Positions 437 to 4,361 of a stretch of 7,656 nt of DNA are shown here, piece after piece. The DNA is from JACRDV01 sp024860865 [NCBI: Methanobacteriota archaeon] (GTDB lineage Archaea; JACRDV01). Below the pieces are notes generated by a model that made no database searches, was not told where the DNA came from, and saw nothing but the letters and a program-made list of their open reading frames with translations. Positions within the stretch are counted from its first letter, which is position 1. Each line of letters begins with the position of its first letter. The stretch lies in contig JACRDV010000057.1 of the NCBI GenBank assembly GCA_024860865.1, positions 1-7,656 on the forward strand, read 5' to 3'. The translations under genes and the position numbers were made by a program.

Positions 437-456
437 GGAAGTAGCACTATATCAAT

Positions 457-655
457 AGGCTCAGCGAGCCTTAAACCATAACATTTGACCTTGGTGCGAG
501 ACCATAAGAGTGGTGCTCTATAAAAACCTGAGTCTCTGTTTACCAAGGGTGGGATGGAGGTAAACCCATCCGTCTGTTCCAATGAAGCTGAAGGTTTGCA
601 ACTCAATCAGCCTGAAGGAATGCTCAGGGCTCTAGCCCGCGAGTAGTTTACCTCC
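457..655 (+). ncRNA. Structured non-coding RNA candidate
   Basis: About 200 nt dense in perfect short helices and preceded by a TATA box at the expected distance. In order: AGGCTC 457-462 pairs with GAGCCT 466-471 (3-nt loop). CCTTGGT 489-495 pairs with ACCAAGG 542-548 and encloses GAGAC 498-502 with GTCTC 532-536, which encloses AGAG 507-510 with CTCT 516-519. GGATGG 552-557 pairs with CCATCC 566-571. TTCC 577-580 pairs with GGAA 617-620 around GCTGA 587-591 with TCAGC 607-611. GGGCT 627-631 pairs with AGCCC 634-638, extended by CTC/GAG. A ten-base complement (556-565 with 646-655) could replace the GGATGG hairpin. I looked for the conserved cores of SRP RNA, RNase P RNA and 5S rRNA and did not find them. 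The 3' hairpin and the GTAGTTTAC that follows resemble the right end of IS200/IS605 TnpB elements, so an orphan guide-RNA scaffold is one reading. Structure is seen; identity is unknown. Confidence 0.5.
524..655 (+). mobile_element. Possible right-end remnant of an IS200/IS605 (TnpB-type) element
   Basis: Three things point this way. A frame stays open from 524 to a TAG at 644-646 (40 codons), with a hydrophilic tail (NEAEGLQ, then NQPEG, ending LARE) of the loose style seen at TnpB C-termini. The stop codon falls just 3' of a GC-rich hairpin with a CTCTAG-type apex (GGGCT 627-631, AGCCC 634-638). The segment then runs into GTAGTTTAC, similar to the terminal bases of such elements. No zinc-finger or RuvC motif of TnpB remains and no TnpA is present, so this would be a relic or a small non-autonomous derivative. 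The alternative is an unrelated structured RNA. Inference from pattern memory, not from alignment. Confidence 0.3.
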
Positions 656-3560: not shown

Positions 3561-4361
3561 ATGAGAATAACTAGGAGACATAAACCTCTAAAAAGATTGA
3601 GAATCGTTTCCTTCGGATTAATAACCATAATGCTGATCCTACCTCCTCTCGGATTGGCTTATTATCAAGGTAGCCACTTAGTGACGGAAGAGGTCTCATG
3701 TGAAAAGTGTCATGGAGAGAAAATGGGAGAGATGGTAGCAACCGAACATGGGATACATCTTTCTAAGATTGTTAATTATACTCTTTCTAAAGGAAGATCA
3801 ACATCATTTGGCTGTATGGTATGCCACGTTGGAACAGCAAGATTGAAGGAATTCGGAATAAAAGGATTTTCAGCCAGACCTAATGTTAACACTCAATCCT
3901 ACGAAGCAACAGGTGGGGAGATAATTAGTTGGCCAGCAACACAATCTACAACGTACACAGATGTTAACAACAATTACACAAGATTGGATACAGTCTGGGG
4001 GGAATCCATGAAAAAAGATGTTAAAATGTTTAACATTGGCGGTAAGAGTTATAGCGATGCAGAGTTCTGGTACTATGTAGTCAGCAGAATGATTGAACTA
4101 AGCGGTGGCAACTACTTCAAGCATGAAATGCGTTATACAACTGATTCTGGAGGATATTGTTGGTGCCATACAGAACAATTAGGCCAATCCTACATTGGTT
4201 ATGATGGTGACGGCCCAGTTGGATTTAATGTGCCTTCAGAGTCAAATAACCCAATAGAGAGCGAAGGTAAGAAATACTATGGAAAAGAAACGGGCAAACA
4301 GCCTGCGCACATGTACGTGCAATGTTGGAAATGTCACTCCTTGGCGCCAGGTAGACACTAA
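3561..4361 (+). CDS. Exported multiheme c-type cytochrome (3 CXXCH + 1 CXCH)
   Basis: A 266-residue electron-transfer protein acting outside the membrane. The N-terminus is a classic export signal: basic n-region (RITRRHKPLKRLR), hydrophobic core at about 15-32, and a likely cleavage after LGLA (residue 33), leaving about 233 residues. Heme-attachment motifs: CEKCH (47-51), CMVCH (85-89) and CWKCH (255-259). A fourth site reads C-W-C-H (200-203), one residue short of canonical. Free histidines that could be distal ligands: H39, H63, H66, H188, H250, H266. Two NYT sequons (72-74, 138-140) allow N-glycosylation. The gene is single, with its own control region and no maturation genes nearby. I do not recognise a named family; size and heme count resemble tetraheme cytochromes that polymerise into extracellular wires, which is speculative. 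Strong as a cytochrome, open as to partner. Confidence 0.85.
   Translation: MRITRRHKPLKRLRIVSFGLITIMLILPPLGLAYYQGSHLVTEEVSCEKCHGEKMGEMVATEHGIHLSKIVNYTLSKGRSTSFGCMVCHVGTARLKEFGIKGFSARPNVNTQSYEATGGEIISWPATQSTTYTDVNNNYTRLDTVWGESMKKDVKMFNIGGKSYSDAEFWYYVVSRMIELSGGNYFKHEMRYTTDSGGYCWCHTEQLGQSYIGYDGDGPVGFNVPSESNNPIESEGKKYYGKETGKQPAHMYVQCWKCHSLAPGRH

Follow-up and report, generated by a model that had tools for sequence, protein, structure and literature searches.

The closest described counterparts of the RNA considered here are the omegaRNAs (also reRNAs or sotRNAs) of archaeal IS200/IS605 TnpB elements. Such an RNA has been described as consisting of the 3' end of tnpB, the right end of the element and about 16 nt of flanking DNA (PMC8612924), and for ISDra2 a pseudoknot is reported close to the guide (PMC10097598). 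Transposase-free elements of the IS605 type, known as palindrome-associated transposable elements or PATEs, form the second precedent; HqIRS71 of Haloquadratum walsbyi belongs to this group, and the 2011 paper that describes it, which predates guide RNAs, considered it non-coding (PMC3119063). In Halanaerobium hydrogeniformans, a PATE-like sequence of about 271 nt has been described (PMC7290912) in which 28 nt from the left end are joined to the final 58 nt of tnpB and a complete right end. Here we analyse a 7,656-nt stretch of archaeal DNA (contig JACRDV010000057.1; hereafter the window, in whose numbering all plain coordinates are given, with every feature of the element on the plus strand). 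The structured RNA at its positions 457–655 is very probably the omegaRNA scaffold of an IS200/IS605-type mini-element (PATE) of about 318 bp, at 334–651, that carries no tnpB. Standalone omegaRNAs of IscB were reportedly noted in 2021. In the open-access literature searched we did not find TnpB-less elements treated as carriers of independent omegaRNAs; PATEs and omegaRNAs are each known, and their combination seems to be little described.

The window element shares with the TnpB omegaRNAs a pseudoknot near the guide, and with HqIRS71, as that element is described, the IS605-type build without a transposase. It departs from the omegaRNAs in three respects: it is without tnpB, its transcript would start at a promoter in the left end, and its 5' domain (457–548) is unlike those of the four TnpB-carrying loci compared. 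The Halanaerobium sequence differs from it in being bacterial and single-copy, and is not discussed as a guide RNA where it is described.

What ties the scaffold to TnpB is its place in other genomes. A covariance model (R1) built only from window 545–655 and its counterpart in a second copy of the element, on contig C136 of the same genome, was searched against 394 archaeal genomes and matched 16 of them, the window's own included, at E ≤0.1. Three of the better matches (L106, L122 and L108) fall at the 3' ends of long stop-to-stop frames (464, 522 and 385 codons), and all three, which were the ones given to Pfam, carry the TnpB domain PF07282 (E 2.3e-15, 1.2e-14 and 3.3e-16). Locus L121, in genome G154, is an internal deletion that retains a left end, roughly the last 80 tnpB codons and the scaffold. 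A further model, R2, matched 6 of 28 genomes of the phylum of G154, leaving 22 without a match; among its matches is L126 (genome G398), where the scaffold lies at the end of a 409-codon frame covered almost whole by a TnpB profile of which L126 is itself a seed. A refined model from 18 sequences (R3), run on the 394 genomes, matched at least 34 of them in at least 89 places at E ≤0.001, both counts being lower bounds with nine candidates scored per genome; 360 genomes gave no match.

We classified 85 of these loci, comprising 79 of the 89 R3 matches (the ten weakest were left out) and six loci from the R2 search, by running a TnpB profile made from seven sequences over up to 1.5 kb of upstream DNA, a procedure by which a divergent TnpB could be missed. 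Thirty-four loci were TnpB-linked (five of them seeds of the profile), 36 were without TnpB, five had a short piece and ten lay too near a contig edge. Among the TnpB-linked loci, 30 were near full length, with at least 335 of 420 profile positions, and four about half (205–225). The window, which offers only 544 nt of sequence upstream of its scaffold, was assigned to the TnpB-less group by hand: no TnpB lies in those 544 nt, and the upstream gene encodes an acylphosphatase. The scaffold is thus found at the 3' end of tnpB in some copies, and in this copy without a linked tnpB. A first-pass annotation of 457–655 had offered two identities for the RNA. The first, a new archaeal class, fails for the core, which belongs to a known class and forms the scaffold at TnpB 3' ends in other archaea; the second, an orphan mobile-element guide RNA, is strongly supported by the TnpB-frame 3' ends together with the pseudoknot, the right-end hairpin, the left-end match and the TTCAT flank.

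The scaffold core contains a hairpin (552–571) whose loop, GTAAAC at 560–565, can form a pseudoknot with the terminal motif GTTTAC (646–651), six of six pairs being available in the window copy; a second, right-end hairpin (622–644) precedes the terminal motif. We examined this arrangement in eight sequences aligned with MAFFT. They comprise three related pairs and two singles, and were selected with R1, a model that covers the sequence and the stem of the hairpin but not the pseudoknot. All 48 cells of the loop-to-end pairing were paired, three of its six pairs showing double changes; in the loop-bearing hairpin 47 of 48 cells were paired, and all six pairs showed double changes. The right-end hairpin was present before the terminal motif in all eight sequences. 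For the structure as a whole, 99.0% of cells were paired and covariation stood at 0.690, values that none of 500 shuffles reached, and the number of further pair types was reached by 9 of 500. Slid versions of the structure paired in 34–48% of cells. Overlapping the scaffold is an open frame of 33 codons and a TAG stop (545–646), a remnant of the TnpB C-terminal frame that is co-located with the TnpB C-terminus of L126, L108 and L121 and is frame-shifted in C136.

The left ends of TnpB-less loci match TnpB-element left ends located about 1.1–1.25 kb upstream of the scaffold. Identities were 89 and 95% in genome G135, 82–96% for six copies in genome G168 and 75% for L105 against L126; in the window, segment 340–395 matches the left end of L130 (genome G264), 1.08–1.14 kb upstream of the L130 scaffold, at 77% over 56 nt (E 7e-6). 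The window element has the IS605-type left and right ends of a PATE and no transposase gene. Directly before it stands TTCAT (329–333), the probable target motif (TAM), whose CAT (331–333) doubles as the reversed ATG start codon of the acylphosphatase gene, which the element adjoins directly. With the left-end core chosen after the sequences were seen, TTCAT precedes that core in 16 of the 36 TnpB-less loci, counting the window, C136 and also L192, whose pseudoknot falls short; among the 34 TnpB-linked loci the number is 12. The best of 150 other pentamers reached 8 in each set: in the TnpB-less set this was the overlapping TTTCA, the next pentamer reaching 3, and in the TnpB-linked set it was TTGAT and GGAAA.

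The limits of the element follow from TTCAT and from the similarity to C136, which begins near 327 and fades past 654; the end at 651 was placed by analogy with the G168 copies. In these, GTTGAC closes the scaffold and the copies differ in the flanking DNA beyond it, and by the same rule the window guide would start near 652. The predicted guide is 16 nt of flanking DNA (652–667), located from the right end and given its length by analogy with ISDra2. Relative to the first-pass annotation, the boundaries thus shift to about 334–651, with the scaffold ending near 651. G168 holds six TnpB-less elements of about 370 bp (L148, L190, L198, L199, L200 and L202) beside two TnpB-linked copies, and the six have about 270 nt of upstream sequence in common, some 195 nt beyond the left end. 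Across all TnpB-less loci, 27 of the 36, from 13 genomes, keep at least five of the six pseudoknot pairs, and 25 of these keep all six. A TnpB piece occurs further upstream in four TnpB-less loci (L031, L171, L189 and L192), where we take it to represent another element or an internal deletion.

A putative promoter and a separate 5' domain lie between the left-end match and the scaffold core. As first annotated, a TATA box (TTATATAT, 427–434) stands about 25 nt before 457, within a gene-free stretch: between 343 and 932 there is no open reading frame of 60 or more amino acids. The box is part of a block (401–441) that recurs at TnpB-type frames. In the window's genome this block occurs alone at seven other places (C114, C136 again, C118 twice, C50, C37 and C106). 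The C37 block precedes the start of a TnpB that is complete on C48 (guided_TnpB, E 8.8e-52), and those at C50 and C118 precede a weakly TnpB-like frame (TIGR01765, E 0.0099, below the cut-off). The full TnpB frame at L126, in another archaeon, is immediately preceded by ACTTTCGGCGACCTCT, which differs from the window block by a single mismatch. Because the block recurs before TnpB frames (C37/C48 and L126), we regard it as the left end of a TnpB element. As judged from sequence, it is probably the former tnpB promoter and now the promoter of the RNA. The earlier proposal that the RNA has its own promoter is plausible to this extent, and a transcript starting at 457 is a prediction.

Comparison with C136 bears on the 5' domain in particular. 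The two copies are 71% identical over the matched part and 89% over window 547–654; by segment, identity is 66% in the left end, 90% in the promoter block, 38% in the 5' domain, 89% in the core and 45% in the 3' flank. The 5' domain contains a hairpin at the predicted transcript start (P1, 457–471) and a nested stem (P2, 489–548), whose three annotated tiers (489–495/542–548, 498–502/532–536 and 507–510/516–519) are all perfect complements. With the pairing of the two 5' domains laid out by hand, P1 and the outer tier of P2 are kept in C136 through four double, compensatory changes, one in P1 and three in the outer tier, and none of the 13 window pairs is broken. Dinucleotide shuffles gave a hairpin and stem of the same layout in 37 of 5,000 cases for C136 and 115 of 5,000 for the window. 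The structure noticed in 457–655 is confirmed as real. Rfam gave no match within 457–655 even at E 10, the four matches in the whole window at E up to 10 include no SRP RNA, RNase P RNA or 5S rRNA, in line with the first-pass reading, and ARAGORN found no tRNA in the window.

Parts of the 5' domain may extend to other genomes. Window 440–548, through the 3' part of P2, resembles the TnpB-less loci L127 (over 32 nt) and L105 of genome G154 (over 13 nt), with 2 and 1 of 2,000 shuffles scoring equally, counts uncorrected for the ten loci tried. It was unlike L126, L106 and L108, which carry TnpB, L121, which carries part of it, and the TnpB-less L110, L139 and L140. L127 and L105 are themselves alike over about 110 nt, far beyond chance (score 78; the best shuffle reached 27). 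Read by eye, the window pairing GAGAC/GTCTC becomes GGGAC/GTCCC in L127, and L105 keeps four of the five pairs. The genomes G154 and G394 are, according to the taxonomic tables, related to the window's genome no more closely than by the same domain. Because the likeness to the window is short, a 5' domain common to it and to L127 and L105 is suggestive and unproved. The occurrence of such pieces in TnpB-less copies of two other genomes nevertheless hints at more than decay and, taken with the six G168 copies, speaks for elements able to maintain themselves and multiply in the absence of tnpB.

TnpB has been proposed to prevent the loss of IS200/IS605 elements by cutting the vacated site (PMC8612924), and the window element could be retained in a similar way. 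It retains both ends, the left one with what was the tnpB promoter and the right one with the omegaRNA scaffold, and has lost tnpB except for its last 33 or so codons. Transcription from the left-end promoter would produce an RNA some 200 nt long, whose last 16 or so nt, copied from flanking DNA, would serve as the guide. A TnpB encoded by another element would bind this RNA and recognise TTCAT followed by the guide sequence, which is the site expected to remain after a Y1 TnpA transposase removes the element; cleavage of that vacated site by TnpB would be followed by repair that restores the element. The ends, the scaffold, its link to TnpB elsewhere and the TTCAT flank are observed, and the window's genome has one stop-free Y1 TnpA frame (PF01797, E 4.1e-32). 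From these we infer transcription, the action of TnpB in trans, cleavage and retention of the element. Use of the guide RNA by a TnpB from another element strikes us as nearly an even call, leaning slightly to the doubtful side.

Several observations count against this interpretation. The window's genome (1.54 Mb in 160 contigs, 92% complete) yielded to DNA and model searches only the window and C136 copies, two in all, and no TnpB with this scaffold, so the cognate partner is missing, unassembled or lost. The two inner tiers of P2 are absent from C136, which is shorter there. Nine of the 36 TnpB-less loci keep fewer than five pseudoknot pairs and are not counted as secure members; among the 27 others at least one, L183, lacks a visible left end and may be the relic of a right end, and L189 retains a TnpB start 290–500 nt upstream. 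The preference for TTCAT is clear in the TnpB-less set and weaker in the TnpB-linked one (12 against 8), and the core that anchors both counts was selected with the sequences in view. Folding energy also offers little: 457–655 folds at −64.3 kcal/mol (z −2.33, with 4 of 200 shuffles equally good), and its opposite strand does about as well (z −2.16, 6 of 200). These modest z-scores lack strand specificity and are weak evidence when taken alone; the structure is better supported by comparison with the second copy than by folding energy.

Some of the same observations would suit a dead relic: tnpB would have been lost through an internal deletion, leaving the scaffold as a decaying right end, no longer transcribed or used. 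This is a serious contender, though we hold it to be somewhat less than probable. PATEs have been described as degenerate IS605 elements (PMC3119063). The genome has provided no cognate TnpB, the reading frame is shifted in C136, and many matches lie at contig edges or have a broken TnpB, a sign of ongoing decay. Against a dead relic, the promoter block and core are kept far better than the rest between window and C136, the pairs of the 5' domain survive four double changes, G168 holds six similar TnpB-less copies, and the 5' domain partly resembles TnpB-less loci of other genomes.

The element's position directly before the acylphosphatase start codon, with fixed flanking DNA as its predicted guide, would also fit an exapted regulator, an RNA that steers a host TnpB, or a nuclease-dead one, towards a target gene and no longer serves the element. 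TnpB-derived regulators exist, but the same arrangement is found beside unrelated genes in many copies, and we consider this explanation improbable. It is scarcely credible that the RNA forms a new archaeal class with no relation to TnpB, or that it is a divergent form of SRP, RNase P or 5S RNA: there is no Rfam match, and archaeal RNase P RNA (RF00373) was not found at E ≤10 in this 92% complete assembly, but the presence of the core on TnpB 3' ends in other archaea refutes the idea as far as the core is concerned. Taken by itself, the 5' domain could still be a new RNA.

A BLAST search with the RNA in 60 archaeal genomes besides the window's own reached no better than E 0.0017, and seven loci (L002–L007 and L068) were without TnpB and apparently unrelated on inspection. 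Two R1 matches were rejected, L107 inside a threonyl-tRNA synthetase gene and L109 without credible context. The 33-residue peptide matched 2 of 394 genomes, its own and G111 (E 0.06), of which the latter was rejected, and NCBIfam had no match for two such 33-residue C-terminal peptides. An exact DNA pattern occurred in no viral contigs and in 13 bacterial genome stretches, taken from their titles to be chance. For seven loci from other genomes, Rfam gave nothing beyond a partial 16S rRNA gene and a single match below threshold; seven loci of the window's genome likewise gave one sub-threshold match, which was ignored.

The window's genome contains other elements of related kind. R2 at E ≤1 left unmatched its other TnpB elements (C48/C29 and C114/C147) and a repeat on C106, which therefore have other scaffolds; loop-to-end pairing in these was read by eye only. 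The C106 repeat (C106:40–345, in L046) is a different repeat RNA of about 300 nt, which at C106 stands behind a left-end block. It occurs at 14 places in the genome, many of them partial, and ends in a hairpin followed by GGTCAC, for which a GTGACC further upstream looks, by eye, like a possible pairing partner. A TnpB element type with left ends on C50/C118 and right ends on C114/C147 has ends resembling inverted copies of about 24 bp (GGTTCTGTTGC...), which is unusual for IS200/IS605. The C48 TnpB (L060:219–1394) reads IVLGKLKKI at what we take to be the position of the RuvC-II glutamate of most TnpBs, and its catalytic residue is possibly displaced or lost. On the contig of the second copy, another left-end block (L031:3519–3567 and downstream, minus strand) is followed by a piece matching the N-terminal part of the TnpB profile. 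Elsewhere in the window, 3561–4361 encodes a protein resembling cytochrome c7 (PF14522, E 1.6e-4, a match that falls short of the curated cut-off).

Tentatively, and with the odds in our view against it, these loci may represent RNA-only selfish elements: TnpB-less units that maintain themselves and multiply by making their own guide RNA while relying on relatives for the TnpB that retains them and the TnpA that moves them. Such units would also have evolved their own conserved RNA domains at the 5' end, including one partly common to the window, G154 and G394. If a TnpB from elsewhere does retain guide-RNA elements that lack tnpB, guide RNAs would themselves be units of selfish DNA. This could explain small IS605-like repeats of archaea and would provide a direct test of the retention model, for which G168, with six TnpB-less and two TnpB-linked copies of one scaffold, would be a natural place to look.
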